Source of the DNA: Streptomyces agglomeratus
GTDB taxonomy: Bacteria > Actinomycetota > Actinomycetes > Streptomycetales > Streptomycetaceae
DNA: 64,000 nucleotides
Reading direction: 5' to 3'
NCBI RefSeq assembly: GCF_001746415.1
Contig: NZ_MEHJ01000001.1
Coordinates: 2,439,001-2,503,000 of the forward strand
Notes under the pieces: model-generated
What the model was told of the DNA's origin: nothing
Databases searched by the model: none
What the model saw: only the letters and a program-made list of their open reading frames with translations
Part shown: positions 27,933-62,605 of the stretch, piece by piece
How the letters are laid out: the number at the start of each line of letters is the position of its first letter
How positions within the stretch are numbered: the first letter of the stretch is position 1
Position numbers and translations under genes: made by a program

Positions 27933-27979
27933 CGCATTGACGTTGACCACGTCGAGCAAGCATGAGGAAGGCACAGCAG

Positions 27980-28918
27980 ATGGGACGCCATCGTCGCTCC
28001 GCCGCCGGACCCGTAGCAGCAGACCACGCGGACGCACCGGCAGGCCGGTACCAGGGTGGCGCGCGCCGCCGGAAGAAGCGGGCCGCACCCGTACGCACGG
28101 GCCTGCTCGGCGTCTCCGCCGCAGTGGCCATGGGCGCCGTCGCCGTCACCTCCGGGCTCGTTCCCGGCGGGGAGAACTACTCCTTCAGCGGCGGCTCGGG
28201 TGACCGGGTGAGCGCCGAGGGCCCGGCCGGACTCGAAACGCAGGGCGGCGGCACCGTGCGGCCCACGGACCGCGCGACGACTCCGGCGGCCGAGGACACC
28301 GGACGGCCCGACGCGCCGTCGAAGGCTCCTTCCGCGAAGCCCTCCAAGCCCGCCGAGCCGTCCAAGTCCGCCGAGAAGCCGTCCGCCAAGCCCTCGGCGA
28401 AGCCTTCCGAGCGGAAGACGGCCCCGGCCGAGCGCACGGAGAAGCCGGCCGCGCCGCCGAAGACGGCGAAGCCCGAACGCGTCGTACCGGCCCCCACCAC
28501 GAAGGCTCCCCAGCCCGGCAACGCGGTCGGCTCCGGCGCCGAGGCCACCGCCGAGGCGGCCGTCCTGGCCCTGGTGAACCAGGAGCGGGCGACGGCCGGC
28601 TGCTCGCCGGTACGGGCCGACCGGTCACTGGCCGCGCTGGCCGGGGACTTCAGCGAGGACATGGCCGCTCGCGGCTTCTTCGACCACACCGACCCGGACG
28701 GGGCGAGCCCGTGGGACCGCGCCGAGAAGGCGGGCATAGCGGGCCTGGGCGGCGAGAACATCGCCCGGGGCCAGGCCGACGCACAGGCGGTGATGGACGC
28801 CTGGATGAACAGCGAAGGCCACCGGGCGAACATACTGAACTGCGAATTCAAGACCCTCGGCGTCGGCGTGCACATGGCGCCCGGCGGCCCCTGGTGGACT
28901 CAGAACTTCGGCTTCTGA
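27980..28918 (+). CDS. Secreted or anchored CAP-domain (SCP/PR1-like) protein
   Basis: 312 residues. A basic N-terminus (RRRKKRAAPVRTG) precedes a hydrophobic segment (LLGVSAAVAMGAVAVTSGLV), a signal peptide or anchor. A Lys/Pro/Ala/Ser-rich linker of about 110 residues, with PSAKPS and PAEPSK repeats, suggests a wall-spanning stalk. The C-terminal CAP domain has LVNQERATAGC, FFDHTDPDG, GENIARGQ and MNSEGHRANILN. The start at 27980 has AGGAAGG at 8 bases; ATG at 27962 is possible. Its last codons, FGF-stop, are the left attachment repeat of the integrated element, which leaves the protein sequence intact but separates it from its likely native terminator. Confidence 0.93.
   Translation: MGRHRRSAAGPVAADHADAPAGRYQGGARRRKKRAAPVRTGLLGVSAAVAMGAVAVTSGLVPGGENYSFSGGSGDRVSAEGPAGLETQGGGTVRPTDRATTPAAEDTGRPDAPSKAPSAKPSKPAEPSKSAEKPSAKPSAKPSERKTAPAERTEKPAAPPKTAKPERVVPAPTTKAPQPGNAVGSGAEATAEAAVLALVNQERATAGCSPVRADRSLAALAGDFSEDMAARGFFDHTDPDGASPWDRAEKAGIAGLGGENIARGQADAQAVMDAWMNSEGHRANILNCEFKTLGVGVHMAPGGPWWTQNFGF
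28906..28918 (+). repeat. attL core: 13-bp repeat at left end of the integrated element
   Basis: CTTCGGCTTCTGA is identical to 39751-39763. It is the last four codons plus stop of the CAP gene. An 11-mer CAGGTCAGCGA at 28927-28937, just inside the element, also recurs inside the right end (39725-39735). Confidence 0.7.
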
Positions 28919-28938
28919 GATTTCCGCAGGTCAGCGAC

Positions 28939-30177
28939 CTAGTCTGACGCTCGGGCCGTGTCAGGGCCGTCGGCGGCCCGAGTTTGGTGAGCGAAGACCC
29001 CATCAACGGCTGCCCGCGTCCGGGTCTCGCTGCTCGGCATCAGGTGCGTGTACGTCCGGAGGGTGTAGCCCGGATCGTGGTGTCCCAGGTATTCGCTCAG
29101 TGCCTTGATGCTCTCCCCCGCGTCCAGGAGGACCGAGGCGTAGAAGTGCCGCAGCGCGTGCATGCCGTTCTCGCGTCCGGTCGTTATGCCGGCCGAACGC
29201 AGGGCGGGACGCCAGACGCGATCGTTGAAGCGGTTCCGGTTCAGCGCCAGCCCTTCAGCGCTGACGAAGATGAGCGTTGCCGTCACCGGCGGCCCGTCCA
29301 CGGTCTTCCACGGCAGCGTGACCTCAGTGGGCTGGTGCCGAGTGATGTGAGCCGCAAGCGCGAAGGCCACCGACTCGGGAAGCGGTACGTCACGCTCCTT
29401 GCCACCCTTGGGCGGGGCGAAGACCGCGCGACTGCCGAGCAGCTTGACTTGCCGAACGGCGTGCACGACGCCACCGAGGAAGTCGACATCTTCGACAGCG
29501 AGCCCGAAGACTTCCCCCTGTCGCAGCCCACATCCGGCGGCAACCTCGATCATCTCGCAGTAGCGGTCGGGGAGCTCCGAGCGAACGCTCATCACGCGTT
29601 CGTACGTCCAAGGCTTGGTCTTACGAGGGTCCAGCCGAGGAGCCTTGACCGAGCGGGCACGGCACGGGTTGTCCTTGATTAAGCGGTCTTCCGCAGCAGC
29701 GGTGAAGACGGTCGAAACGTGCGCGAAGATCACACGCCGGTAGCCAGCCGAGAGTCCGGCGTCCTCCATCTGCCGCATCCAGAGCCGCAGGTGCGAGGGC
29801 TGGATAGCCCCCATGGTGCGCGAGCCCAAGTAAGGGACAGCGTGCAGGCGAAGCCGCATATCGACGGCGGCCCGCGTCGCCGGGTCCGTGGTCTGTGTCT
29901 TCAGCCAGCCCGCCACGTACTGCCGAAACGTGACCTTTCCCGCCTGCGGATCGATGTAGTCGCCCCGCGTCATGTCGGCTTCGATGGTGGCTAGCCAGGC
30001 ATCCGCCTTGCGCTTCTGCTTGTCAGGGAATGCCTTGCTCTTCTCCGTGCCATCCGGAGCGACGTACCGGGCGCGGTAGCGCAGGCCGACGCCGAAGCGG
30101 TCGGTCTTGACTCTGGCGGGCTTGCCGTCCGGCCCCGGCTCGCTCTTGTACCAGCGGTCTTGAACGTGTCCAGCCAT
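28939..30177 (-). CDS. int: Tyrosine site-specific integrase
   Basis: 412 residues. An N-terminal SAM-like arm/core-binding domain (FRQYVAGWLKTQTTDPAT) is followed by the catalytic domain with GCGLRQGEVFGL (catalytic Arg), HALRHFYASVLLDAG (His-x-x-Arg), YLGHHDPG (His) and TLRTYTHLM with the tyrosine nucleophile. It catalyses integration and excision at att. ATG at 30177 overlaps the xis stop by one base. The gene ends 20 bases from the attL repeat, the usual int-att arrangement. Confidence 0.96.
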   Translation of the reverse strand: MAGHVQDRWYKSEPGPDGKPARVKTDRFGVGLRYRARYVAPDGTEKSKAFPDKQKRKADAWLATIEADMTRGDYIDPQAGKVTFRQYVAGWLKTQTTDPATRAAVDMRLRLHAVPYLGSRTMGAIQPSHLRLWMRQMEDAGLSAGYRRVIFAHVSTVFTAAAEDRLIKDNPCRARSVKAPRLDPRKTKPWTYERVMSVRSELPDRYCEMIEVAAGCGLRQGEVFGLAVEDVDFLGGVVHAVRQVKLLGSRAVFAPPKGGKERDVPLPESVAFALAAHITRHQPTEVTLPWKTVDGPPVTATLIFVSAEGLALNRNRFNDRVWRPALRSAGITTGRENGMHALRHFYASVLLDAGESIKALSEYLGHHDPGYTLRTYTHLMPSSETRTRAAVDGVFAHQTRAADGPDTARASD

Positions 30178-30371
30178 CAGGCAGCCTCTTCCATGAGGGT
30201 GGAGACCCAGGCGCGTACGTCTTCCGGGTCGTAGCGGAGGTGTCGGCCGACACGGAAGCCGCGGGGCCCGGTGTCCTTCCGGCGCCACTGGTAGACCGTC
30301 TCGACAGGGACGCCGAGGAGGTCGGCCAGGTCGAGCGGTGTCAGGTAGCGATCGGGAAGCGGTCGCTTCAT
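30177..30371 (-). CDS. xis: Excisionase, MerR-like helix-turn-helix
   Basis: 64 residues. RYLTPLDLADLLGVPVETVYQWRRKDTGPRGFRVGRHLRYDPEDVRAW is the winged helix shared by AICE excisionases (quoted here as consecutive segments: LTPLDLADLLGVP, ETVYQWRRK, GFRVGRHLRY). It directs the integrase toward excision. The ATG overlaps the rep stop codon (ATGA) and its own stop overlaps the int start, so rep-xis-int are coupled. Confidence 0.93.
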   Translation of the reverse strand: MKRPLPDRYLTPLDLADLLGVPVETVYQWRRKDTGPRGFRVGRHLRYDPEDVRAWVSTLMEEAA

Positions 30372-31846
30372 GCCCACGCCTCCACGTCGGAAGCAGGCAT
30401 GGTCGCGAGTGCTTCGCGGGCGGTTTCGCGGTTGAGCTGTAGGTCCCGGGCGATCGAAGCGGCGAGGGCGGATTCGCCGGGGGTGTGGCCGTGGCCGGCG
30501 TACTGCCAGTCGGCGAGGACGAGTACGGTGTCCGGCTCGCGGTCGTCGAGTCCGAGTGCTTCGCGTTCTTGGGCGGCGCGGTAGTCGGCGCGGATCTGGC
30601 GCAGGGCGCCGAGGGTGGTGGAGTAGCGGCGGGACTTGGACGAAAAGTGACCGCGAAAGCCGAGCATGTGGGCCCAACGGGTGAGGGCGCGGTCTGGGTA
30701 GAGGGGTTGCAACGCGGCGCAGGCCCCCATGAGGCGGCGGGCGTGCTCCGTGATGGGTAACTGGGCGAGGTCCTCGCCGAGGCCGGATCCGTGGCAGCGG
30801 GCGCAGCGGCTCAGTGCGGAGCCGGGGCGGTTGTAGCGGTCGGAGAGGCCAGTTCCGCGGCATTTGCGGCAGTGCACGGCCGTGTCGGTCGCCCCGGTGT
30901 TCTCGGCTGCCTTGGTCGCGTACTTGGCGACGTAGGAGGCAACGGCCTGCTCGGTGATGTCAGCTCCGTCGTCGAAGGCGCGGATGGGGCGAACGTCGAG
31001 TTGGGTGCCCCAGCGAAAAGGCCGGCGCGGCTGCCCGTCGGCGGCGGGCACGGTCACCGTCGTGTACGCGTGGACGGCGGCAGCGCGTATCGCGTCGGTC
31101 AGCAGGGTCACGGAGGCCCACGAGGGCGGGGCACTCTCGGGTCCGTCGGGTCCGTCGAGACGGATCACGGCATGGAAGTGGATCGCTCCGCGCTTCTGGA
31201 ATTCGGCGACTTTGCCGTACGAGACGCGCGCGGCTTCCGTCAGCTCGCGTTGGGTGAGTCCGGCGCGGGTGGCGATCTCCCGGCGGAGCCGGGTGGTGAA
31301 GCGCTGCCAGAGTTCTCCGGCGTGGTTGTTGAAGAGCACCGTGCCCGCGTAGTCGTAGGTTGCCGGGTCGAGGGCTGTGCCGAGGATCGGGTCATCGTCC
31401 GGGTGGTTGGTGCCGCAGCGGCAGCGGCCGTTGGAGGGCTGGTTGTGGACGGGTCCGAAGGAGGGGGCGGTGAGGGTGGTGAAGACCCGGGGGTGTTCGC
31501 GCACGGTCGCGGGAATGTCCTTGGTGTCGTCTCCGGCGAGTCCGGCGCGGATCAGGTGGTAGGTGTCTCCGGCGTAGGTCCAGGCGCAGGCCGGGCAGCG
31601 TGAGGCGCGCCGGTTGCCGCAGGCGACCCGTAGCCGTCCGCCGGGCTCGTGCTCGGTCGTGTAGTGGCGGAGGGTCTCGCCGGTGGTCTTGTCCTTGGCG
31701 AGGGTCCAGCCGGTGAGGTGGATGGGGTTGGCGCAGCCGCCGGTGCGGCGGATCTGGTCTTGCCAGCGGTCGAAGCCGGGGGACCCGGCCACCTTGAGGA
31801 TGTCCCCCAGGGTGGCCGGGTCCAGACCGGTGAGGGTCTCGGTCAT
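30368..31846 (-). CDS. repSA: RepSA-like replication initiator
   Basis: 492 residues. AICE replication initiator of the rolling-circle type. An HUH motif is visible in KRGAIHFHAVIRLDG, and VASYVAKYATKA carries the candidate nicking tyrosines. A zinc-ribbon-like pair CRKCRGTG and CARCHGSG lies between, and an N-terminal CGNRRASRCPACAWTYAGD cluster suggests another metal site. The start MTETLTGLDPATL at 31846 overlaps the stop of the preceding small gene (ATGA). Expected to nick the double-strand origin after excision. Confidence 0.9.
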   Translation of the reverse strand: MTETLTGLDPATLGDILKVAGSPGFDRWQDQIRRTGGCANPIHLTGWTLAKDKTTGETLRHYTTEHEPGGRLRVACGNRRASRCPACAWTYAGDTYHLIRAGLAGDDTKDIPATVREHPRVFTTLTAPSFGPVHNQPSNGRCRCGTNHPDDDPILGTALDPATYDYAGTVLFNNHAGELWQRFTTRLRREIATRAGLTQRELTEAARVSYGKVAEFQKRGAIHFHAVIRLDGPDGPESAPPSWASVTLLTDAIRAAAVHAYTTVTVPAADGQPRRPFRWGTQLDVRPIRAFDDGADITEQAVASYVAKYATKAAENTGATDTAVHCRKCRGTGLSDRYNRPGSALSRCARCHGSGLGEDLAQLPITEHARRLMGACAALQPLYPDRALTRWAHMLGFRGHFSSKSRRYSTTLGALRQIRADYRAAQEREALGLDDREPDTVLVLADWQYAGHGHTPGESALAASIARDLQLNRETAREALATMPASDVEAWA

Positions 31847-32031
31847 GCGCGGCTTCCGGCCGTCGCGCGGGAGGAGGCGGGGCGGGTGCCGGTGCCGTGG
31901 CAGGTCGGGCAGTGCGCGGTGATGGTGCGCCGGTTGCCGGTGCGGTCGCGTCCGCCGAGGGTGATGGCGGCGGAGGCGAACCCGTCGCAGTCCGGGCAGA
32001 TGCGGGCCGTGGTGGTCGGGCGGTGGGCCAT
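31843..32031 (-). CDS. Small zinc-ribbon protein of the element
   Basis: 62 residues. Two cysteine knuckles, CPDCDGFA and CPTCHGTG, resemble half of a DnaJ-type zinc ribbon and match the ones in Rep. The ATG at 32031 follows GGAAGGAACC in its leader, and the stop overlaps the rep start. Function unknown; such small genes precede rep in AICEs. Confidence 0.75.
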   Translation of the reverse strand: MAHRPTTTARICPDCDGFASAAITLGGRDRTGNRRTITAHCPTCHGTGTRPASSRATAGSRA

Positions 32032-32123
32032 GATGGGTGGTTCCTTCCGGATCAGTGGTTCGGGCAGGGGCACGGCTCCCGGGGCGGACGAAACTTGGCG
32101 GTAGAGGCCGCCCCGGGGGCCGG

Positions 32124-32429
32124 TCAGCGGTGCAGGTGGCTGGAGTGCAGGAGCGAGCGCAGGACGACGGCGCAGACCGCGACGGACACGGCGGTGATGG
32201 CGACTGCGAGGAGCATGGAGACCAGCACGGCGCCGACGACGAGCACGGCCGTGAGGCCACCGCCGACGAGGGCGACCAGCGCGCCGGGGGTGAGCTGTAC
32301 TGCCGGAGCCGGGCGGGTGGGCACCGGGGCCGGGGCGGGCACCGTGTGCTGCACGGGGGCCGAGGCCGGGGCGGCGGGTGCACGGGGCGCGGTGTAGGTG
32401 TCGGGGGCCGGGTACTTGGGCTTGAACAT
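32124..32429 (-). CDS. Membrane protein, Spd (spread)-like
   Basis: 101 residues. A Pro/Ala-rich N-terminal half (APRAPAAPASAPVQ) is followed by a long hydrophobic stretch (about residues 47-92) forming two membrane helices. ATG at 32429 follows AAAGGAGC. Small membrane proteins at this place in AICEs are spread proteins helping distribution of the element along recipient mycelium; that role is inferred from position. Confidence 0.75.
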   Translation of the reverse strand: MFKPKYPAPDTYTAPRAPAAPASAPVQHTVPAPAPVPTRPAPAVQLTPGALVALVGGGLTAVLVVGAVLVSMLLAVAITAVSVAVCAVVLRSLLHSSHLHR

Positions 32430-32451
32430 CGGTGGTGCTCCTTTCAGCGGG

Positions 32452-32607
32452 TTACTTGATGGCGGTGTCGATGACGGGGGCGAGCAGGCTGTCGGCGAGG
32501 AGGTAGCCGCCGAGCAAGAGCACGACCACGAGCCACAGCGGCGGGCGGATGAGCTTGATGCCGAGGTAGCCGACGGCGATCAGGGCGATCCAGAGCGGGA
32601 CGTCCAT
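32452..32607 (-). CDS. Small membrane protein, Spd-like
   Basis: 51 residues, almost entirely hydrophobic: MDVPLWIALIAVGYLGIKL then PPLWLVVVLLLGGYLLADSL, two membrane helices. ATG at 32607 overlaps the upstream stop by one base (TGATG), so it is coupled to the transfer protein gene. Inferred spread function from context. Confidence 0.75.
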   Translation of the reverse strand: MDVPLWIALIAVGYLGIKLIRPPLWLVVVLLLGGYLLADSLLAPVIDTAIK

Positions 32608-32798
32608 CAGCGGACCCGGCAGCGGTGGGTGCGGGCGGCGAGCTGGGCGGCGGACTGGCTGGAGAAGTCGGCGGACCAGCCGCAGCGGTCGGAGGTGCAG
32701 ACGGCGGCGTGCTTGGTGCGGCCGTTGCGGTCGCGGTGCGTGCCGATCTGCACCGGCCCGATCCGCATCACGGAGTGAAAGAAGTCGCGAGAAGGCAT
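32607..32798 (-). CDS. Mobile element transfer protein
   Basis: 63 residues. FFHSVMRIGPVQIGTHRD and HAAVCTSDRCGWSADFSS, then AARTHRCRVR: a Cys/His pattern consistent with a small zinc-binding protein typical of AICE transfer regions, where such proteins are annotated as mobile element transfer proteins. ATG at 32798; a later ATG at 32768 is possible. Confidence 0.8.
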   Translation of the reverse strand: MPSRDFFHSVMRIGPVQIGTHRDRNGRTKHAAVCTSDRCGWSADFSSQSAAQLAARTHRCRVR

Positions 32799-32803
32799 GG
32801 AGA

Positions 32804-32986
32804 TCAGTTCTCCGTTCGCAGGCTGGGGCCGGGGTGGTCACTGAGGATGCGGGCCGCCTCAGCCGGGTCGGCGGTGCGGTCGGCGGCTTCCTCGGCGAGT
32901 AGGCGGGCCAGGGTCGGGCGGCCGGTGTCGGCCATCTCGCGGGCAGCGGCGAGGTATTCGTCTCGGGTCGGGTCACTTCCACGCAT
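32804..32986 (-). CDS. Small hypothetical protein of the element
   Basis: 60 residues, acidic and helical (EYLAAAREMADTGRPTLARL, ADPAEAARILSD). ATG at 32986 follows AAAGGAC at good spacing. No recognised domain. Part of the tightly packed transfer array. Confidence 0.65.
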   Translation of the reverse strand: MRGSDPTRDEYLAAAREMADTGRPTLARLLAEEAADRTADPAEAARILSDHPGPSLRTEN

Positions 32987-33001
32987 CGGTGATCAGTCCT
33001 T

Positions 33002-33637
33002 TCAGGCGAGTTGGGCGGCGATGGCGTCGGCCATCGGCGCGGGGACACCGAGGCGGGCGCGCAGGGTGTCGGGGTCGATCTCGGAGCCTGTGCGGGTGCG
33101 GTGGTCGTCGGCGACCTTGCGGGCGTGCTCCACCAGCGCGGGCGGAACCGAAGGAACCGAGGGCGGTGCAAGCAGGGCGGGGGCCGCTTCCGGGGCCGGA
33201 GGCTGATCACGTTCGACCAGCTCAAGGCCGAGGTCATCGGCCGGGACCGAATCGGCCGGCGCTGCCGGGGCCGGGGTGGGTGTGTGGGCGAGGAGGGTGC
33301 CGCCGAGGAATGCGAGGGCGGGCCATCCGGCGACGCTGAAGCGCAGCCAGGCCGGGGGGTTGGCCAGGTCGAGGAATCCGGCGGTGGCGACGTTCGCGCC
33401 GAGCGAGGCGACCAGAGCGATCAGGAACCAGCACCACGCCAGACGGGACCGGCCACCACCACGAAGCCGTCGCCAGGCCGCGACCAAGAGCAGGTCCACG
33501 CTGATCGGGTAGGCCCACGCCTTCCAGCCGGTCTGCCCTGCGGCGGCGGCCAGGTCGTGCAGGTGAGCGAAGGACAGAGCCCCGGCAATGACGGCTTGTA
33601 CGAGGACAGCGTCGGGGCGAATCGAGGGACGGAACAT
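33002..33637 (-). CDS. DUF2637-type membrane protein (SpdB3-like)
   Basis: 211 residues. Four hydrophobic segments in the first 110 residues (VLVQAVIAGALSFAHLHDLA, AYPISVDLLLVAAW, WCWFLIALVASLGANVATAG, GWPALAFLGGTLLA), then a Pro/Ala linker and a C-terminal helical piece PDTLRARLGVPAPMADAIAA that resembles a helix-turn-helix. DUF2637 proteins with this layout are common in AICE spread regions. The start at 33637 has GAAGGAGG. Confidence 0.85.
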   Translation of the reverse strand: MFRPSIRPDAVLVQAVIAGALSFAHLHDLAAAAGQTGWKAWAYPISVDLLLVAAWRRLRGGGRSRLAWCWFLIALVASLGANVATAGFLDLANPPAWLRFSVAGWPALAFLGGTLLAHTPTPAPAAPADSVPADDLGLELVERDQPPAPEAAPALLAPPSVPSVPPALVEHARKVADDHRTRTGSEIDPDTLRARLGVPAPMADAIAAQLA

Positions 33638-33654
33638 CGAGTCCTCCTTCCTGG

Positions 33655-33831
33655 TCACTGGTCGTCCGGTCCGTCGGCGGCACGCGGGCCGAGGCAGAGG
33701 AGCAGTTCGGCGCGCTGCGTTTCGTCCGCCGCCTGGTAGGCAGAGCGGGCGACGCGGAGAGCCGTGGTGCGGTCGTCTGCGTCGATGGCTTGGAGGACTT
33801 CGCGGACCGTGCTTTCGCTCTCGGCTCGCAT
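33655..33831 (-). CDS. Small helical protein (58 residues)
   Basis: Reads MRAESESTVREVLQAIDADD, then TTALRVARSAYQAADET and a Gly/Pro tail. ATG at 33831 has AAAGGT seven bases upstream, and it fills the gap between two element genes on the same strand. No known domain. Confidence 0.65.
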   Translation of the reverse strand: MRAESESTVREVLQAIDADDRTTALRVARSAYQAADETQRAELLLCLGPRAADGPDDQ

Positions 33832-33900
33832 GGAGGGTGACCTTTCGCGAGGCGGGTCCCGGGCGGGGAAGGTTCTTCGGCCGCCCGGTCCCGGCGGTGA

Positions 33901-34086
33901 TCAGTTGGTGGGGGCGTGGCCGGTGCCGATGCAGGCCAGGCACAAGGCGGACTGCCGATCTTCGGTGTCGCGGTGCTTGCGGGCGGAGCCGACGCGGACG
34001 GTTTCGGTGATCTCGCCTGTGCCCTTGCAGTCCGTGCACTTCTTCGCCGGGCGCTTGCGGGCGGTGGTGGTCTTGCGTGCGGTCAT
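33901..34086 (-). CDS. Small zinc-ribbon protein of the element
   Basis: 61 residues, basic N-terminus (TARKTTTARKRPAKK) then CTDCKGTG and CLACIGTG, a two-knuckle DnaJ-like zinc ribbon. ATG at 34086 follows GGAAGGAGC. A second protein of this kind lies before rep, and Rep itself carries the same motif. Confidence 0.75.
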   Translation of the reverse strand: MTARKTTTARKRPAKKCTDCKGTGEITETVRVGSARKHRDTEDRQSALCLACIGTGHAPTN

Positions 34087-34171
34087 GGGTGGTGCTCCTT
34101 CCGGGATCAGGCATGGAGCGGGTAGGGACCTGGCGTGATGGGGTCACGCCGACCGATAAAGCGGGGGTTGA

Positions 34172-35527
34172 TCAGGCTGTAGCCGGGGTCGTCTCGATGG
34201 CCGGGGTGGGGGTCAGGGCCAAGTGCGGGAGCACGGGCCTGAAGGCCGCGAGTTCGGGCACGTCCGGGGTGCGGTCGGCGTGCCGGTTGCAGGCGTTGAC
34301 GGCCTGGCGCAGCGTGGTGTGCGGTGCGCGGATGCGGGCCCATCCGCCGGTGGAGTCGCCGGTGACGGCGAGGCCGGGGGCGTCGGTGGGGATCTGGATC
34401 GCGGCGAGTACGGCGTCCGGGGAGATGTCGCCGAAGGCCATGTTGGCCGAGGTCTCGTCGTTGACGCGGTGGGCGGTGCGGTCGGTGAGCTGGGCGCGGA
34501 GCATGGTGATGCCCTTGCCGAGTTCGGAGCCGAAGCGCTGTCCGCAGATCTCCAGATGGATGCCGGCCGCGCGTCCGAGCTGGGCGAGGCGAACCAGGGA
34601 GGTGATGATCCGGTCCCTGCGCTTCTCCTCCTCCTTGGACGCGAACAGGGCCAGCTCGGCGACCTCATCGACGAGGACGACGATCGGGGTGGGGCGTAGG
34701 TGGTCGGGAAGGTCCCAGATCTCGGCGGCGATCTCCGCATCCGGCACGTCCGAGGTGATGCGCTGCTCGGCCCGTATGAGTTGGTAGACGCTCTCCATGC
34801 GGGTCACCAGGGCATCGAGGAGTGCGGCGGCGGTGTCGGGGTTGTCGGCGAGCGCGGTGAACCGGCGGGCCAGTGGGAACAGCTCCACACCCTGCTTGCA
34901 GTCGATGCCGACCAGGGCGACATCCTGTGCGGCGAGTTCGGCGACCAGGTTGCGTTGGTAGACCGACTTGCCCGACATGGTGGCGCCAAGGGTCAGGGCG
35001 TGTGGCATCTGCCGGTAGTCGCGGTAGTGCACGGCCCCGTCCTCCCGCAGCGCCACCGGGACCCGCATCGGGGCACGGTCGACCTTGACGGGCATCTGCA
35101 CCCGCTTGAGGACGTCGTAGCCGGTCATCCGCAACTCGACGATTCCGGAGCGCAGTTCGCGGGAGGTGACGCCGTACATGGCGAACGAGTGGCGTAGCCG
35201 GTCCGTGGCCGCAGCCACATCGAACGCGTCCTGACCGGGGCGAAGCTTGATCCGCAGGACCAGGCCGGTGCGTGTGGGGCGAAGCCGCAGGATCTGCGGC
35301 GGGCGACTTTCGGGTGCCGGGCGGTGGGTTGCCCGGGCCAGGTGGAGACGCCAGCGTGAGGGCGGGACAGTCAGTCCGCAGGCGTCCATGACCGAGGCGT
35401 AGCGGACCAGGACCCGCAGCGCGGCGAAGGTGACCCCGAAGGTCAGCCAGTACCAGGCCGGGCGCTGCCACCGCAGGAGACCCGCAGCGACAACGACCAG
35501 CAGCAGTAACGCAGTCAGCCACGACAT
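34172..35527 (-). CDS. traSA: FtsK/SpoIIIE-type DNA translocase, TraSA-like
   Basis: 451 residues. Two N-terminal membrane segments (about 3-19 and 26-41), then an FtsK-like ATPase with Walker A GATMSGKS (181-188), TPIVVLVDEVAELALFA (Walker B) and ICGQRFGSELGKGI. This is the single protein that moves double-stranded DNA between mycelia in AICE conjugation. ATG at 35527 lies just after the stop of the upstream gene; a TTG two codons earlier is possible. Confidence 0.93.
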   Translation of the reverse strand: MSWLTALLLLVVVAAGLLRWQRPAWYWLTFGVTFAALRVLVRYASVMDACGLTVPPSRWRLHLARATHRPAPESRPPQILRLRPTRTGLVLRIKLRPGQDAFDVAAATDRLRHSFAMYGVTSRELRSGIVELRMTGYDVLKRVQMPVKVDRAPMRVPVALREDGAVHYRDYRQMPHALTLGATMSGKSVYQRNLVAELAAQDVALVGIDCKQGVELFPLARRFTALADNPDTAAALLDALVTRMESVYQLIRAEQRITSDVPDAEIAAEIWDLPDHLRPTPIVVLVDEVAELALFASKEEEKRRDRIITSLVRLAQLGRAAGIHLEICGQRFGSELGKGITMLRAQLTDRTAHRVNDETSANMAFGDISPDAVLAAIQIPTDAPGLAVTGDSTGGWARIRAPHTTLRQAVNACNRHADRTPDVPELAAFRPVLPHLALTPTPAIETTPATA

Positions 35528-35529
35528 GA

Positions 35530-35874
35530 TCAAGCAGCCTTCGACTTCGAAGCGCCCTCAGCCAGCGACGTGACGGCGACGGCGCGGAACGCGATCCCGT
35601 GACGACCGTCTCGTTCCCACGGGCGGGCCGTCAGGCCGGTCAGCGCGACCGGGCTACCCATGACCAACTCACCGGTGACGCCCGGCTGAGGAACCGTGAC
35701 GGCCAGGACCTCAGCCTCACCGTTGGCGGCGAACAGCACGCCCACCGTCATCAACTGGGCACCGGTCTCGACATCCAGGGCGAGCTCACCGGTGCGACGG
35801 TCTTTGACCTTGGGCTGCGGCGGCTGGGCCACCATCACCATGGCGGCGGAAGTGTCGACGGGAATCTGACGCAT
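35530..35874 (-). CDS. SCO3933-family regulatory-like protein
   Basis: 114 residues, beta-rich: KVKDRRTGELALDVETGAQL, TVGVLFAANGEAEVLAVTVP and VALTGLTARPWERDG, an OB-fold-like pattern. It is the gene regularly found between the korSA and tra genes of AICEs, annotated as SCO3933-family regulatory protein. Directly downstream of two operator-like palindromes and two bases from tra, so it probably leads the transfer operon. Confidence 0.8.
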   Translation of the reverse strand: MRQIPVDTSAAMVMVAQPPQPKVKDRRTGELALDVETGAQLMTVGVLFAANGEAEVLAVTVPQPGVTGELVMGSPVALTGLTARPWERDGRHGIAFRAVAVTSLAEGASKSKAA

Positions 35875-35881
35875 CTAGATC

Positions 35882-35961
35882 ACTCCTGTAGAGGGGTTGG
35901 ACTCCGCCACTCATGTACATGAGTGACATTGAGAAGAGTGCCTGACTCCTATACATGAGTC
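35882..35961. promoter_or_regulatory. KorSA-type operators in front of the transfer operon
   Basis: A perfect palindrome ACTCATGTACATGAGT lies at 35909-35924 (18 bp with flanking C/G). A second site, GACTCCTATACATGAGTC, is at 35944-35961. A weaker half-like copy ACTCCTGTAGAG begins at 35882. They sit between korSA stop and the 114-residue gene start, where a repressor would shut the transfer operon. Confidence 0.75.
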
Positions 35962-36012
35962 AACCCGCTGCGAAGAAGAAATCGCGGCGGGTTGAGGGGA
36001 GTTGAGCGAGCG

Positions 36013-36792
36013 TCAGTCGGCAGCAGGGATGCGGTAGCTGAAAACGAACTGGTCAGCAGCCATGAGCGTGTCGCACACCTCCACTACGCGACCGGCGTCG
36101 GTGACCGCGTCACGGATCAGGTGAACGACGGGTGCGCCGGGGCTCAGCGCCAGTTCGGATGCCTCAGCCTTGGCGGCCGGGCGCGCTTGCAGCGTCTCAA
36201 CGAACTCGGCGAAGGTGTGGCCGTCGTCCTCCAGCCGGGCGTAGATTCCGCCGGGGCCAGGGTTCTCGGCGAACAGTTCGGGGATGTCCTTGACCACGTC
36301 CCAGGGCAGGTACGAGGTGGCCGTCTCCACCGGGACACCGTTACGGAAGTAGAGCCGCCGCCGGGCGAGGACCTGAGTGCCGGCCGGAATCCCGAGCCGT
36401 TCGCCGATCTCCTCCGGGGCCTCCATTGGGCCGATGTAGAGGACGCTCACCTTGGCCGTGGCTCCGGACTGCGCAGACTCGGCGAGGTACGCGGCCTTCC
36501 CGCCCCGGCGATGCGATGCCCGGAAGCGGTCCGAGGAGCGCAGCCGCACGGGCGGGCGGTCCTTCACGATCGAGCCCTTGCCGTGGCGGGTGTCCACCAG
36601 GCCGCTCGCCCGGACTTCCACCATTGCCTTGCGGATCGTTCCGCCGGAGACGCCGTAGCGCTCAACGAGCTCCGACTCACTCGGCACCATGTCACCAGGC
36701 TTGAGGACACCCGCCCGGATCTGTTGAATGATCTCTTCGGCGATCTGAACGTATCGAGGTACGGCCCTGCCACCTCCTACCGCTGTTCCCAT
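36013..36792 (-). CDS. korSA: GntR-family (HutC-type) regulator, KorSA-like
   Basis: 259 residues. An N-terminal winged helix (YVQIAEEIIQQIRAGVL, PSESELVERYGVSGGTIRKA) is followed by a UTRA ligand-binding domain (VLARRRLYFRNGVPVETATS, VVHLIRDAVTDAGRVVE). In pSAM2 the GntR protein KorSA represses transfer. ATG at 36792 follows AAGGA. It is flanked on both sides by the same operator-like sequence, so it probably autoregulates. Confidence 0.88.
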   Translation of the reverse strand: MGTAVGGGRAVPRYVQIAEEIIQQIRAGVLKPGDMVPSESELVERYGVSGGTIRKAMVEVRASGLVDTRHGKGSIVKDRPPVRLRSSDRFRASHRRGGKAAYLAESAQSGATAKVSVLYIGPMEAPEEIGERLGIPAGTQVLARRRLYFRNGVPVETATSYLPWDVVKDIPELFAENPGPGGIYARLEDDGHTFAEFVETLQARPAAKAEASELALSPGAPVVHLIRDAVTDAGRVVEVCDTLMAADQFVFSYRIPAAD

Positions 36793-36812
36793 AGTCCTTC
36801 TCACTCTCCTAT

Positions 36813-36829
36813 GCTCCTGTATATGAGTA
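36813..36829. promoter_or_regulatory. KorSA-type operator over the Nudix gene start
   Basis: CTCCTGTATATGAGT repeats the pattern of the two operators at 35909 and 35944. Its ATGAGT is the first two codons of the Nudix gene, so a bound repressor would cover the start of that gene and sit next to the korSA start (36792). Confidence 0.65.
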
Positions 36830-37278
36830 ACAGCGCCTGCGAGACCCAGTCAACGCCACTGCACTCCGTGTCGGTTGCGGGAGCGGTGGTGCGCGAGGAC
36901 GGGCGACTCCTGGCGATCCGCCGAGCGGACAACGGAAGGTGGGAACTCCCAGGCGGAGTCCTCGAACTCACCGAGGCCCCGGAGGAGGGCGTAGCCCGCG
37001 AGGTCTGGGAAGAGACCGGCATCCGGGTCGAGGTAGACGAGCTGACCGGGGTCTACAAGAACACGACGCGAGGCATCGTGGCCCTGGTGTTCAGGTGCAA
37101 GCCTGCCGGAGGCAGCGAACGAACCTCCACCGAGTCGACGGCAGTTGATTGGCTCACGCCCGCTGAAGTCTCCGAGCGGATGGCCGAGGTCTACGCGATC
37201 CGGCTGCTCGACGCTCTCGACGGGGGCGGGCCCCATGTCCGGAGCCATGACGGCAAGCACCTGATCCAAGCGCGGTAA
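36823..37278 (+). CDS. Nudix hydrolase, Pif-like candidate
   Basis: 151 residues. A complete Nudix box GX5EX7REUXEEXGU is present: it begins GGVLELTEAPEEG and ends REVWEETGI (about residues 44-67). The pSAM2 immunity protein Pif, which blocks redundant transfer between carriers, also has a Nudix motif, and this gene occupies the divergent position next to korSA; that match is inference. No ribosome site precedes the ATG at 36823, which lies inside an operator-like sequence, so the mRNA may be leaderless; ATG at 36811 is an alternative. Confidence 0.85.
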   Translation: MSNSACETQSTPLHSVSVAGAVVREDGRLLAIRRADNGRWELPGGVLELTEAPEEGVAREVWEETGIRVEVDELTGVYKNTTRGIVALVFRCKPAGGSERTSTESTAVDWLTPAEVSERMAEVYAIRLLDALDGGGPHVRSHDGKHLIQAR

Positions 37279-37315
37279 GAGTTTCCCTACTTCATCAAGC
37301 ACCCGGCTCCGCGTT

Positions 37316-37380
37316 CCGCTCCGCCGGGCGGGCTTCCCGGCTCCGCTCCGCGCGACGCTCCTGCCTTCGGCCCGCTCCGC
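37316..37380 (+). repeat. Three direct repeats of CCGCTCCGC
   Basis: Perfect copies start at 37316, 37343 and 37372 (spacing 27 and 29). A further CGCTCCG is at 37493. Clustered short direct repeats are the form of sequence recognised by TraB/FtsK-type translocases in Streptomyces plasmids. Confidence 0.8.
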
Positions 37381-37558
37381 GCGCGCTGCGCCGACGCCCG
37401 CCCCTGCGAGTGGGACAGGCCCGAGGGCATGAGCCGAGCCCCCAACCGGCGCCGCGGTTCCCTCTCCCTCACCGACATGCCTCCGGCGGGGGCGCTCCGG
37501 CTCCGGGATGGCGGGGGCGCCGCACGCGGGTGTCGGCCGGTGGGGTGTGGCGGTGGGG

Positions 37559-37710
37559 AACTCCCATCCCGTCCGCCATCGACCCAGGACAAGCCGAGCA
37601 GACACGGCACCGGGCGTCCAGGTCGTTCGTACAGTGGCGCGCTCCACCTGGACGCCCGGCACCGCGCCTGCTCCACGGTGTGTGGGTCGACGGCAGACGG
37701 GATGGGAGTT
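37559..37710. repeat. 65-bp imperfect inverted repeat with 22-base spacer
   Basis: Left arm 37559-37623 and right arm 37646-37710 match at 51 of 65 positions by eye: the outer 15 bp and the inner 13 bp are perfect, with most mismatches in one internal block. It could extrude as a cruciform or fold as a long hairpin in single-stranded DNA. Confidence 0.9.
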
Positions 37711-37821
37711 GGGGGCGAGCTGATCGGGCGGATGCTCTCCTTAGTCGTCGCCCCAGATATGCGGTAGCCACCTGACAACTGGTTCTGTAGCTTGCCCCCA
37801 TGACCTACAACCGAAGGGGCA

Positions 37822-38244
37822 ATGCCGCGTAGGCGCCCCTCAGCCCTCCGGGGCGAGTTCCCCATCCACCTTCTGCGACAGCGACGGTACCCGCTCATAG
37901 ATCGCCTTTCGGGGTCTTGCACAGCCGACCTGCGCCGCTTGGAGCGGACCCGCTTCTGGCCCGAGGCCACAGAGGAAGCGTTCTGGCACTGGCAGGCCTT
38001 TGCCCATGGCCCCGTCAGACAACTTGTAGATCCACTCTTAGGTCCTGATTGCGGCATTCCTGAGTGTGGGTGCTACGGCGCCGGCTTCCGTGAGCACCTC
38101 GAAGCCGTGCTTCACGCGCTGCCCAGGAAGAGCGCACGTGAGTTGCGCGCCCTTGTGCGGACCCTCGATGAGAAGATTCTGGCAAGGGCCAAGGTCATCC
38201 CGGCTGACAGCCTGGACGCGCCCTGGTGGCGAGGCCAGCTCTAG
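37822..38244 (+). CDS. Hypothetical cargo protein
   Basis: 140 residues. Contains FWPEATEEAFWHWQAFAHG, then a short cysteine cluster (CGIPECGCYG) and a helical Arg/Leu-rich part (HALPRKSARELRALVRTLDE). ATG at 37822 is preceded by GAAGGGG at slightly short spacing. I do not recognise a family. Codon use looks less GC3-biased than host genes. Confidence 0.6.
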   Translation: MPRRRPSALRGEFPIHLLRQRRYPLIDRLSGSCTADLRRLERTRFWPEATEEAFWHWQAFAHGPVRQLVDPLLGPDCGIPECGCYGAGFREHLEAVLHALPRKSARELRALVRTLDEKILARAKVIPADSLDAPWWRGQL

Positions 38245-38425
38245 GATCAAGGGCGGCCGTCTCGGTTTCCTTCTCATTCAGCCCCGTTCAGGGCCGTTCA
38301 GACGGGACGTGCAGCGCTCCCAACACCGGTGACTAGCCGCCCATGAACGCAGGCGAACGGCCCTGTGCGCAGCCCACCACCCACCACCACAGTTGGAAAG
38401 AGCGCTGTTCGCCGGCCAGACGTGG
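38245..38425. other. Short intergenic region with CCGTTCAG direct repeats
   Basis: Between convergent cargo genes. Two copies of CCGTTCAG lie near 38282-38300. No terminator of clear form seen. Confidence 0.35.
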
Positions 38426-38971
38426 CTACAAATGGCGGGCGTCCGGGCTGAGGATGGCTGGATCTTCGGATCGCAGCCGGAACTTTGCATGGACGCCGAG
38501 GCTGTTGCGTGCGGCAATGTAGAACTCATCACGCTTCTCCTGAAACTCCCGGAACGCCCTCATCCAGTCGTCTGACGTACCTGGGCGCATGTCTCGAACG
38601 AACTGTTCCAGTACCCAGGCATGCCGCTGTAGCGATCTGGCTGCCGAGATGGATTCCGCGTCTCCCATAAGGAGCACGGCTTCGAACGCATAGCCACGCT
38701 CAAGCTCAGCTTCGGCCAGCAGCTCCAGGCCGGCCTCCCTGGCGAGTGGCTGAGGCAGGTCGAAGAGTCCCTTGCCTGCAGCCAGACGACCTGCCAGCGA
38801 GGTGAACCTCTTGACCGCGTCGGCAAACCGGAGATAGCACTCCAGGCGACGTTCGTCCCACCGTGTGGAAAGTTGGCGCCGCCACCGAGATCTCTCCATC
38901 AGGGCTCCACCGACGTACGACGCAACCGCGCCGACGAGCACACCGATCAAGGTGAACAATTGTCCTGACAT
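38426..38971 (-). CDS. Single-pass membrane protein with helical cytoplasmic domain (cargo)
   Basis: 181 residues. N-terminal membrane helix (LFTLIGVLVGAVASYVGGAL) followed by basic ERSRWRRQL and a long helical domain (DERRLECYLRFADAVKRFTS, SLQRHAWVLEQFVRDMRPG). ATG at 38971 follows GGCGGGGGC; ATG at 38986 has no ribosome site. Unknown function; membrane-tethered helical proteins of this size are frequent accessory genes in Streptomyces elements. Confidence 0.75.
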   Translation of the reverse strand: MSGQLFTLIGVLVGAVASYVGGALMERSRWRRQLSTRWDERRLECYLRFADAVKRFTSLAGRLAAGKGLFDLPQPLAREAGLELLAEAELERGYAFEAVLLMGDAESISAARSLQRHAWVLEQFVRDMRPGTSDDWMRAFREFQEKRDEFYIAARNSLGVHAKFRLRSEDPAILSPDARHL

Positions 38972-39286
38972 GCCCCCGCCTATCATGTATCTGTCAGGAG
39001 AGAACATACGGCCGGAGGCTCTGACGCGTAAGGGCCTCAGGCTGGTATGAGAGCTGAACGGCCTTCTCAGCGGAGCCGGGATCAACGGCCGAATGCCACT
39101 ACATCTCCGGAGCCCTCGGGCAGTTGCTGTACCGCAGCGAAGTACAGCAACCCCAGCAACCGGCAGCACCCAGTACAGGCCCTCAGGGACTTCCGGGCGG
39201 CCTGTATGACCTCAAGTGACCGATCTTGCTAGAGCTACGGATCAGAAGGTGGCACCTTGGGCCGGTTGGCTGCCTCAGCAACCGAG
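38972..39286. other. Intergenic region of the element, with a 10-bp hairpin
   Basis: About 315 bases, visibly less GC-rich. A perfect inverted repeat (GTTGCTGTAC/GTACAGCAAC, 39123-39151) lies in it, followed by loose CAGCAACC and CAGTACAGG repeats. No gene called. Confidence 0.45.
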
Positions 39287-39583
39287 CTAACGTACCCGGA
39301 AGTAGGGGATTTGGCCGGGCGGACAGACGATCACCGAGTCGGGCCCACGCAGCACAAGCGCCCGCCCCACATGCTCTTCCAGGTAAGCCCTCAGCTTCTC
39401 AGCAAGCCCTTTGCGGATCTCGTCTTCACTCCCTCCCTGTCCCGGCTCCAGCGTGGTCCACGGGTCCTGGTGCTGGAACGCTGTGATGGCAGTTACCTGC
39501 ACGGTCTGGCCGTCTTCCATCAACGCCGTCACACGAAGCTGAGTCATGCCGTCCACCATGAGGTCTCGCAGGTGCTCACGCAC
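39287..39583 (-). CDS. Hypothetical protein near the right end of the element
   Basis: Up to 98 residues. VTALMEDGQTVQVTAITAFQ, then an acidic helix (SEDEIRKGLAEKLRAYLEEH) and VLRGPDSVIVCPPGQIP: a mixed alpha/beta small domain. GTG at 39583 has no clear ribosome site; ATG at 39559 or 39547 are alternatives. No family recognised. Confidence 0.5.
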   Translation of the reverse strand: MREHLRDLMVDGMTQLRVTALMEDGQTVQVTAITAFQHQDPWTTLEPGQGGSEDEIRKGLAEKLRAYLEEHVGRALVLRGPDSVIVCPPGQIPYFRVR

Positions 39584-39750
39584 GGGAGCCGGTCCGAATG
39601 GGTTCGATCATGTCTGGGAATTCCGGGCCGTCGCCGGGCCGTCCGAGAGCAGCCGAAGACGACCAACGTTGACAACCATCGACGGATAAGCCACAGGTCA
39701 CAGCGTTGGTCGCTCAAGAGGCCCCAGGTCAGCGAGGCCCCGCGTCACTT

Positions 39751-39763
39751 CTTCGGCTTCTGA
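39751..39763 (+). repeat. attR core: 13-bp repeat at right end of the element
   Basis: Identical to 28906-28918. Just beyond it lies a 12-bp terminator hairpin (39796-39825) that would follow the CAP gene directly if the element were removed. Confidence 0.7.
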
Positions 39764-39795
39764 TCCCGCTGCCGAGCCGGCACCCGCACAGCACG

Positions 39796-39825
39796 AAGGC
39801 CCCCGTCCACGACGACGGGGGCCTT
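39796..39825. terminator. Terminator, probably the native one of the CAP gene
   Basis: Perfect 12-bp arms (39796-39807 and 39814-39825) around CACGAC, followed on the plus strand by TGCTTT. It serves the convergent minus-strand flavodoxin gene now; before integration it would have lain about 33 bases after the CAP gene stop. Confidence 0.8.
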
Positions 39826-39857: not shown

Positions 39858-40460
39858 TCAGACGGTGACGGCTTCCCGGCCCGACGTGAAGACCCTGGCG
39901 GTCTGTGCGACCCGGCGCCCGAGGTGCTCGGCGGTGGCGATGTCCGCCTTGTGCACGCCCTCGGGACCCTCGTCCGAGTTGGTCTGGGCGCCGGCGCCGG
40001 AGAAGAAGCCGAGACGGTTGAGGTCGTTCTCGGAGCCCTCGGTCGAGTTCCAGCCGGGCTTGAGACCGAGGTTCACCCAATGCATGGCGTGCTGGGCGGC
40101 CAGCGTCTGGAAGTACTGGAGCGTGTGCAGCTTGTCGCCGCTCTTCGAGCCGCTGTTGGTGAAGCCCGCGGCGAGCTTGTCGTGCCAGGCCCCGGTGAAC
40201 CAGCGCTTGGAGGTCTCCTCGGCGAACCGGTGGAAGGCGCCGGACGCCGTCCCCATGTAGGTGGGCGAGCCGAAGACGATCGCGTCGGAGACGTCGAGCA
40301 GCTCCCACTGGTCGTCGGTGATCCCGTCGACGTTGATCAGGTGGACGATGGCGCCGACGTCGGCGGCACCGGCGCGGACGGCCTCGGCGATGACGGCCGT
40401 GTGGCCGAAGCCGGAGTGGTAGGCGATCGAGACAACGGGCTGAACAGCGGGGGTGGTCAC
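39858..40460 (-). CDS. Flavodoxin-like NAD(P)H-dependent oxidoreductase
   Basis: 200 residues. VSIAYHSGFGHTAVIAEAV is an FMN phosphate-binding loop, and AIVFGSPTYMGTASGAF and GFTNSGSKSGDKLHTLQYF are typical of WrbA/flavodoxin-family reductases. The GTG start at 40460 follows GAGGAGA. Divergent from an HxlR regulator that probably controls it; such pairs respond to quinone or electrophile stress in other bacteria (inferred). Confidence 0.9.
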   Translation of the reverse strand: MTTPAVQPVVSIAYHSGFGHTAVIAEAVRAGAADVGAIVHLINVDGITDDQWELLDVSDAIVFGSPTYMGTASGAFHRFAEETSKRWFTGAWHDKLAAGFTNSGSKSGDKLHTLQYFQTLAAQHAMHWVNLGLKPGWNSTEGSENDLNRLGFFSGAGAQTNSDEGPEGVHKADIATAEHLGRRVAQTARVFTSGREAVTV

Positions 40461-40512
40461 GGTGACGGTCTCCTCGTCGGCGCTTCTGCTCAATGGCGGA
40501 CACCAGAAGAAA

Positions 40513-62080: not shown

Positions 62081-62087
62081 CTGTACG

Positions 62088-62160
62088 TACCCCCGACCGG
62101 ATTCGAACCGGCGCTACCGCCTTGAGAGGGCGGCGTGCTAGGCCGCTACACAACGGGGGC
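62088..62160 (-). tRNA. tRNA-Glu (CTC)
   Basis: 73 bases, cloverleaf with acceptor GCCCCCG, D-arm, anticodon loop CTCTCAA and T-loop GGTTCGAATCC. Anticodon CTC reads GAG. CCA is not encoded. First of three identical Glu copies in the window, last on the minus-strand transcript. Confidence 0.97.
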
Positions 62161-62182
62161 CTTGCAGAATTAGCTCTGCGAG

Positions 62183-62254
62183 CTGGGCTACCAGGACTCG
62201 AACCTAGACTAAGGGAACCAGAAACCCTCGTGCTGCCAATTACACCATAGCCCA
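62183..62254 (-). tRNA. tRNA-Gln (CTG), copy 1
   Basis: 72 bases, acceptor TGGGCTA, T-loop GGTTCGAGTCC, anticodon CTG (reads CAG). The anticodon stem has AGGGT/TCCCT. It differs from copy 2 by one compensatory base-pair swap. Confidence 0.96.
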
Positions 62255-62285
62255 AAATGGTTTAGACCAATATGGTTTCAACCCG

Positions 62286-62358
62286 TACCCCCGACCGGAT
62301 TCGAACCGGCGCTACCGCCTTGAGAGGGCGGCGTGCTAGGCCGCTACACAACGGGGGC
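62286..62358 (-). tRNA. tRNA-Glu (CTC)
   Basis: 73 bases, identical to the copies at 62088 and 62422. No CCA encoded. Part of the five-gene tRNA cluster on the minus strand. Confidence 0.97.
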
Positions 62359-62421
62359 CCTAGCGATCCTCGCGTCAGCGCATCCGGGAGCGACCCGAAG
62401 GCGATGGAAAGAAAGGATCTG

Positions 62422-62494
62422 TACCCCCGACCGGATTCGAACCGGCGCTACCGCCTTGAGAGGGCGGCGTGCTAGGCCGCTACACAACGGGGGC
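62422..62494 (-). tRNA. tRNA-Glu (CTC)
   Basis: 73 bases, identical to the other two Glu copies. Separated from the next by 63 bases (to the left) of ordinary sequence. Confidence 0.97.
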
Positions 62495-62533
62495 CTTGCA
62501 GAGTGCTGCATGTACTTCAACAGCTCCTGCGAG

Positions 62534-62605
62534 CTGGGCTACCAGGACTCGAACCTAGACTAACGGAACCAGAAACCGTCGTGCTGCCAATTACACCATA
62601 GCCCA
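62534..62605 (-). tRNA. tRNA-Gln (CTG), copy 2
   Basis: 72 bases, same body as copy 1 but with ACGGT/TCCGT in the anticodon stem. First gene of the cluster on the minus strand, preceded by a GC hairpin. Confidence 0.96.

Follow-up and report, generated by a model that had tools for sequence, protein, structure and literature searches.

AICE surveys emphasise tRNA genes as targets. Insertion at the 3′ end of a protein gene is familiar from phage 21/e14 in icd and from SGI1 in trmE, and the element described here resembles these, although the hosts and elements are unrelated, in that insertion rebuilds the 3′ end and the protein stays functional. Among AICEs, the sites occupied in 11 Streptomyces strains comprise 36 in tRNA genes, 14 in protein-coding genes, and 1 in an intergenic position, according to the portion of that study considered here, which also describes rlmN as a site with an 11-nt repeat and reports accretion and decay at shared sites (PMC9513070). 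The protein genes named in that portion are rlmN and a glycosyltransferase gene, and the CAP gene that concerns us is not among them (PMC9513070). Likewise, in the consulted part of another account, AICEs with integrases of the pSLS subfamily are all exceptions to tRNA insertion (PMC3218068); pSLS itself was absent from the 10 plasmid records that we retrieved at E 1e-20. Thus, the sequence-only reading of our locus, which took tRNA genes to be the normal target of pSAM2-type AICEs, has to be qualified, given that insertion into protein genes had already been reported for 14 AICE sites (PMC9513070, as above). No AICE site in a CAP gene is named in the literature that we searched (partial coverage, main texts without supplements). 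AICE insertion in protein genes is already published, and what is new here is the co-variation of attL and attR.

The window, i.e., the whole 64-kb (64,000-nucleotide) stretch of Streptomyces agglomeratus DNA that was analysed, contains a 10.8-kb element that is a pSAM2-type AICE, as the sequence-only reading had proposed; Pfam families for its modules were recovered. A tyrosine integrase of 412 aa (int, 28939..30177, minus strand; Phage_integrase E 2.1e-19), 94% identical to that of the relative L056, lies beside one att site and is followed by a xis-like excisionase gene (30177..30371, minus; HTH_17 E 2.1e-11) and by repSA, encoding the element's own pSAM2-type rolling-circle replication initiator (30368..31846, minus, with an inferred start codon; PF20199 E 6.5e-143, scored on the longer frame 30368-32383). 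Further along are genes for an SpdB-type spread protein (32607..32798, minus; PF05122 E 3.4e-30), an FtsK/SpoIIIE-type transfer protein, Tra (34172..35533, minus; PF01580 E 2.3e-45), and a GntR/UTRA regulator (36013..36792, minus; Pfam GntR and UTRA) that, going by its position, we take to be KorSA-like. The Nudix protein gene (36823..37278, plus; E 1.5e-18) is Pif-like by position, Pif being, in the part of the source considered, the NUDIX protein of pSAM2 (PMC3218068). Tra is the single FtsK/SpoIIIE-type transfer protein among the scanned ORFs, which include no T4SS, and the Pfam scan, covering part of the small ORFs, returned no further transfer families. A cargo region (37822..39169) holds two ORFs (37822-38244, plus; 38426-38971, minus) for which the Pfam scan at E 0.05 gave no family. 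As typical of AICEs, the Xis-like and spread genes are accompanied by flanking direct repeats, with the site empty in relatives. The module set, Int-Xis-RepSA-Spd-Tra-GntR-Nudix, and the direct-repeat att sites are shared with pSAM2 and pSAM3, the latter of similar size in the portion of its description considered here (18,965 bp, with int, xis, repSA, tra, spd, and pra; PMC4891641). By contrast, pSAM3 resides in a tRNA-Arg gene between 21-bp repeats, whereas our element occupies the last codons of a protein gene between 13-bp repeats, so that the tRNA-gene insertion characteristic of pSAM2-type integrases is not seen at the CAP site.

The target is a CAP-domain protein gene (27962..28918, plus; PF00188 E 1.2e-23), the product of which is a secreted protein ending in WWTQNFGF. 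Its final 13 bases, including the stop codon, constitute the left copy of CTTCGGCTTCTGA (28906..28918, plus), and the only other copy in the window, also exact, lies at 39751..39763 (plus), with no third copy at one mismatch; int ends at 28939, 20 bp past the left copy. The five tRNA genes of the window are all at 62.1-62.6 kb, distant from the element, and the identification of a protein gene rather than a tRNA gene as the target holds. Beyond the left core, the arm profile delineates an element arm (28919..28970, plus) that comprises CCGCAGGTCAG and two arm-type GGGCCGT repeats, 11 bp apart (28953-28959 and 28964-28970, the second within the int 3′ end), a pair that, at +34/+45, is conserved in most of 21 attL/attR pairs. 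On the right, two GGGCCGT repeats, again 11 bp apart, are found at 39625..39642 (plus; −139/−128 relative to the core end), and an arm conserved among relatives, CAGGTCAGCGA...GTCACTT (39725..39750, plus), adjoins the core, which probably represents the original last bases and stop codon of the chromosomal gene. The attP junction of the excised circle is predicted to read TCACTT-CTTCGGCTTCTGA-GATTTCCGCAGG. Just past the right copy there is indeed a hairpin with a perfect 12-bp stem (39796..39825, plus), likely the former CAP terminator, shared with a convergent gene. Among relatives lacking arms, 5 of 17 have a stem of at least 12 bp directly behind the CAP stop, as against 0 of 8 among those with arms, making it plausible that the hairpin is the native terminator of the CAP gene; a scan for T-tailed terminators scored nothing at either element end, this hairpin included.

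Taken by itself, the 13-mer is weak evidence because five other exact repeats of 13-14 nt link the same zones (28.4-29.4 kb with 33-50 kb), which lends some colour to the idea that it is a chance repeat and that the true att site is a longer repeat elsewhere. Two matches to CTTCGGCTTCTGA arose in 0 of 100 sequence shuffles. Comparison with other genomes is decisive here. In 4 clean empty-site relatives (L004, L009, L011, and L024), all of them species other than S. agglomeratus, the CAP stop is followed directly by the sequence that starts at 39764 in the window, and the joined CAP and right flanks form one alignment block across the junction; at several empty sites, the right neighbour of CAP is the chromosomal flavodoxin/NADPH-dependent FMN reductase gene (39858..40463, minus). 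Among 80 named int relatives, 23 end within about 50 bp of a CAP 3′ end, one is split from it by an assembly gap (L067), one is displaced (L135), and 55 have no CAP match. The canonical single-copy CAP end is present in 265 of 295 genus genomes, and 27 of the 295 (25 plus 2) have element arms directly behind the CAP stop, the reversed control of the search pattern that yielded the 25 giving 0 matches. The empty sites, the same-site integrases, and the arms conserved at both ends rule out a chance 13-mer, the probability of which we consider negligible; this comparison of sequences proves the insertion junction at the CAP end and backs the claim that insertion preserves the CAP protein.

Natural variation of the gene end allows the crossover to be located. 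Among 25 attL/attR pairs, each on a single contig, positions 7 and 9 of the 13-mer both agree in 24, against a mean of 8.3 and a maximum of 17 in 20,000 shuffles, whereas positions 10, 12, and 13 show no association (agreement in 19 versus a shuffled mean of 19.3). The stop codon is TAG at 64 of 265 CAP ends, but no TAG is found among the 27 ends that bear arms (Fisher p 5.7e-4, independence assumed), although both the shuffles and the Fisher test overstate independence because the genomes share kinship. A host TAG persists at attR next to a TGA at attL in G325, on one contig, and in G323, on separate contigs. The first count comprised 21 pairs, in which identity at positions 1-6, 8, and 11 was by construction because the search patterns fixed these positions; re-reading with arm profiles, themselves built from the pattern-derived rows, relaxed them and added 4 pairs (G019, L061, L096, and G237). 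The last of these, a remnant without int, is mismatched at positions 8 and 9 and contradicts the crossover reading. Another mismatch at position 9 is found in G311/L056, the two ends of which lie on separate contigs; three arm matches without a readable core (G020, L130, and L135) were dropped. Together with the lack of TAG in arm-bearing ends, the co-variation at positions 7 and 9 indicates that strand exchange probably falls within positions 1-9 (28906-28914 at attL), with the stop codon and the wobble base that precedes it (28915-28918) probably coming from the element. Thus, of the 13-mer that the sequence-only reading took as the shared att repeat, positions 1-9 behave as exchanged, but the stop codon appears to be supplied by the element. 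The co-variation, like the att junctions and the relatives that carry them, is read directly from the compared genomes, and 3′-end variation in nature narrows the crossover to a few bases without experiment.

We therefore consider it highly probable that the element's own tyrosine integrase recombines with an attachment site in the last codons of the near-genus-wide, single-copy CAP gene. Strand exchange would fall in bases 1-9 of the 13-mer (CTTCGGNTN), so that the final residue of the protein, Phe or Tyr, would remain the gene's own, and the third base of its codon and the stop codon would come from the element; the original chromosomal gene end would be moved to the far side of the element, leaving the CAP protein unaltered and the native terminator hairpin displaced. 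Gene families suggest that the integrase catalyses this reaction, that Xis assists excision, that RepSA drives rolling-circle replication, and that the FtsK-type protein mediates transfer. A narrower exchange, confined to the 7 bp CTTCGGC, framed in attB by the inverted repeat TCAGAA/TTCTGA and leaving the last codon and stop wholly element-derived, draws on the rejoined site of the window, where TCAGAA-CTTCGGC-TTCTGA reads as an inverted repeat without mismatch. However, this repeat is imperfect in the many hosts with a TACTGA ending, and position 9, which lies outside the 7 bp, carries the same base at attL and attR in 24 of the 25 pairs despite T/A variation among genomes; because of this co-variation, we reject CTTCGGC as the likeliest overlap and regard it as rather improbable. 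Somewhat less improbable, if still unlikely, is an element with correct boundaries that has lost excision: decay is frequent at the CAP site, of the 25 arm-bearing genomes, only 5 match int over about 400 residues, 5 do so in part, and 15 show no match. Nevertheless, the window element has open frames for int, xis, rep, spdB, tra, GntR, and Nudix, together with two intact arm pairs and an intact att core. Integrase-mediated insertion with exchange in positions 1-9, our preferred reading, yields a testable rule, namely, that positions 7 and 9 must be identical at the two ends and that the stop codon is element-derived.

A single-copy protein-gene end thus emerges as a recurrent attachment site across Streptomyces, and the CAP 3′ end becomes a candidate site at which Streptomyces vectors could integrate neutrally. 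In the integrase tree, from which 15 of 81 rows were excluded as short or broken, the 20 CAP-site rows require one label change (support 94, not starred). Phage and plasmid records contained no integrase of at least 60% identity, and a Pfam search of the 344-348-aa ORFs of small relatives gave no match. Sister integrases appear to be located at the 3′ ends of further protein genes, the targets being dapD-type, inositol monophosphatase, NusG, phosphoglycerate mutase, and Mrp genes; GlnA, read from DNA in L098, where the scanned frame has no Pfam match, and isocitrate dehydrogenase are probably also targets. The integrase lineage may shift between protein-gene targets while retaining its arm sites. 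There is perhaps an even chance that a whole actinomycete tyrosine integrase clade is specialised on protein-gene 3′ ends, swapping nothing but the stop codon and one synonymous base, with the last-codon match acting as a host filter, targets switching clade by clade, and most CAP-site elements being mobilised by others. The last part of this proposal stems from the 15 long CAP-site elements searched, 12 of which have no FtsK-type transfer gene, so that most may rely on mobilisation by other elements.

The target of the element is the 3′ end of a CAP-domain ORF (27962-28918), whose last codons and stop form the left copy of CTTCGGCTTCTGA (28906-28918); a second exact copy lies at 39751-39763, and a search of the window allowing up to 1 mismatch found no third. 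The stop codon of int is located 20 bp past the left copy, so that both the repeat and the adjoining integrase gene are as described in the sequence-only reading. Another five exact repeats, 13-14 bp long, link 28.4-29.4 kb with 33-50 kb, and therefore the 13-mer repeat alone is unconvincing. The region between the two copies encodes a tyrosine integrase, an excisionase-like protein (HTH_17), the pSAM2 replication initiator RepSA (E 6.5e-143), SpdB, an FtsK/SpoIIIE transfer protein, a GntR/UTRA regulator and a Nudix protein, along with a cargo zone of ORFs of unknown function, a gene set that is that of a pSAM2-type AICE. The five tRNA genes of the window (62.1-62.6 kb; Glu CTC x3 and Gln CTG x2, minus strand, 62087-62605) are unrelated to the element.

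Comparison with loci retrieved by means of the CAP 3′ end revealed the empty site. The rejoined flanks, that is, the CAP end and the sequence from 39764 onward, form a single alignment block over the junction in L004, L009, L011 and L024, as anticipated for CAP loci free of the element. The L012 alignment also spans the junction, but with a short arm-like scar; in these loci, a short spacer separates the CAP stop from a convergent flavodoxin-like gene. Among 295 genomes of the genus, the canonical CAP end is present in 265, and a pattern search detected this end followed by the CCGNAGGTC arm, a conserved element sequence beside the core, in 25, compared with 0 matches in the same 295 genomes for a reversed control pattern. 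A version of the pattern with TAA or TAG stops added 2 genomes, both with TAA and both with ...GGPWWTQ[ND]FG[FY]* before the arm; the resulting 27 arm-bearing CAP ends are a lower bound because the 25-genome pattern demanded C at position 10 of the core. Of those 25 genomes, 5 contain an int match of ~400 residues, 5 a partial match and 15 none; 5 of the 25 (G013, G221, G114, G242 and G079) escaped the longer arm profile and are possibly short scars. Among the best 80 of 141 integrase relatives from one scan of the genome contigs, the int end abuts the CAP 3′ end in 23, whereas L067 is broken by an assembly gap, CAP is displaced in L135, and 55 have no CAP match.

A first comparison of attL (the core at the CAP end) with attR (the far core) covered 21 same-contig ends and was limited by the search patterns used; reading the core beside core-free arm profiles yielded 25 same-contig pairs, with the arm hits of G020, L130 and L135 dropped because their cores were unreadable. 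Across these pairs, there are no mismatches at positions 1-7, and 1, 1, 3, 1, 3 and 2 mismatches at positions 8 through 13, respectively. Positions 7 and 9, which vary among genomes, agree in 24 of the 25 pairs, the sole exception being a remnant (G237), whereas 20,000 shuffles gave 8.3 agreeing pairs on average and never more than 17. By contrast, positions 10, 12 and 13 agree in 19 pairs, as many as shuffling gives on average (19.3). Among the pairs on different contigs, G312, G323, G331 and G324 match at positions 7 and 9 and G311/L056 does not; G332/L130 was too tangled to be read. On the simplest reading, the exchanged segment would lie within positions 1-9, and from position 10 on, attL would carry bases of the element and attR those of the chromosome.

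Stop codons provide an independent test of this reading. TAG terminates 64 of the 265 CAP genes vs 0 of the 27 arm-bearing ones (Fisher p 5.7e-4 if the genomes are independent), and at attL of 23 named CAP-site loci, the stops are TGA in 21, TAA in 2 (L061 and L080) and TAG in none. Furthermore, G325 and G323 have TAG at attR and TGA at attL. It would seem, then, that the stop codon of an occupied CAP gene comes from the element and that the protein is not altered, consistent with the earlier proposal that insertion preserves CAP. The hairpin noticed just past the right copy of the 13-mer is real: the 12-bp stem of the window sits beyond attR. Of 17 relatives that lack arms, 5 (L004, L007, L010, L011 and L024) have a perfect stem of at least 12 bp no more than 90 nt from the CAP stop, compared with none of the 8 arm-bearing loci, window included; a scar, L006, has no stem of this kind but still shows strong folding (z -5.1). 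CAP termination may be lost after insertion.

The arms carry GGGCCGT repeats in pairs with 11-bp spacing, near +34/+45 relative to attL and near -139/-128 relative to attR, with mean copy numbers per end of 1.86 and 1.52 over 21 pairs vs 0.40 per kb inside the elements; the attR arms of G133 and G260 contain no copy. The left attR arm ends with CACTT in 23 of 25 pairs, the others being the GCACTT remnant (G237) and an AGTT variant (G019).

In the integrase tree, which comprises 66 of 81 rows, the 20 CAP-site rows require one label change (SH-aLRT 94, not starred). Taken together, the 12 target labels require 11 changes, which is the fewest possible, whereas shuffled labels need 30.1 on average; near-copies, however, inflate clustering of this kind. 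Two changes were counted for each of the GlnA and TAP-like groups. Genes abutting or flanking the other integrase clades encode inositol monophosphatase, NusG, glutamine synthetase, isocitrate dehydrogenase, a histidine-phosphatase-family enzyme of the phosphoglycerate mutase type, acyl-CoA dehydrogenase, an Smr protein, a THDPS/dapD-type succinyltransferase and an Mrp-like NTPase. Cores of 12-18 bp repeated at both ends, among which those of 12-14 bp at a single locus can be due to chance, were found for the dapD type (14-mer; L077, L078, L079, L095 and L111), phosphoglycerate mutase (18-mer; L102), NusG (L093 and L107), inositol monophosphatase (L090) and Mrp (L094). A search for far-end cores of GlnA, Icd, acyl-CoA dehydrogenase and Smr found none, so these targets are assigned by adjacency alone. 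In Pseudonocardia, an RNase P RNA gene (L121:2154-2556, Rfam RF00010) bears at its 3′ end the far copy of a 17-mer core that is repeated next to a related integrase; L124 resembles this locus but has no Rfam match.

The 3′ ends of tRNA genes are the sites of most tyrosine-integrase AICEs, the pSLS subfamily excepted (PMC3218068), and, in the strains of PMC9513070, 36 insertion sites of chromosomal elements fall in tRNA genes, 14 in protein-coding genes and 1 in an intergenic region. AICEs in protein genes are thus of a known kind; the available portions of these two sources do not name the CAP site, the clade-to-gene pattern or the stop-codon exchange.

Accretion and decay of elements, likewise described in PMC9513070, are suggested at the CAP site by a second attL-type arm directly after the attR core in L141 (G256; near 3127-3150) and L137 (G228; near 1980), as in tandem insertion. 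A hint that elements at the CAP site may be mixed or nested comes from L130, in which the core at the end of an attR-type arm (GTGGCTGTACTGA; ~12.7 kb, reverse complement) is like that of the dapD clade.

Three of 15 CAP-site elements with lengths of 5.3-10.8 kb, those of the window, G313 and G314, contain an FtsK-type gene; the remaining 12 have none. The scanned ORFs of three small relatives encode GntR/UTRA, CutA1, Fic and the Imm10 immunity protein, the others having no family; Fic/DOC and Imm10-type proteins (L200:1922-2989 and L197:17918-18331) occur in small CAP-site elements without the FtsK gene. Outside the window, the S. agglomeratus genome contains two FtsK-family matches with equal scores (G000:C1:2294978-2295573 and G000:C1:7711695-7712290), far apart on the chromosome and each split into two overlapping frames, which are probably near-identical, frame-broken copies of a transfer gene.
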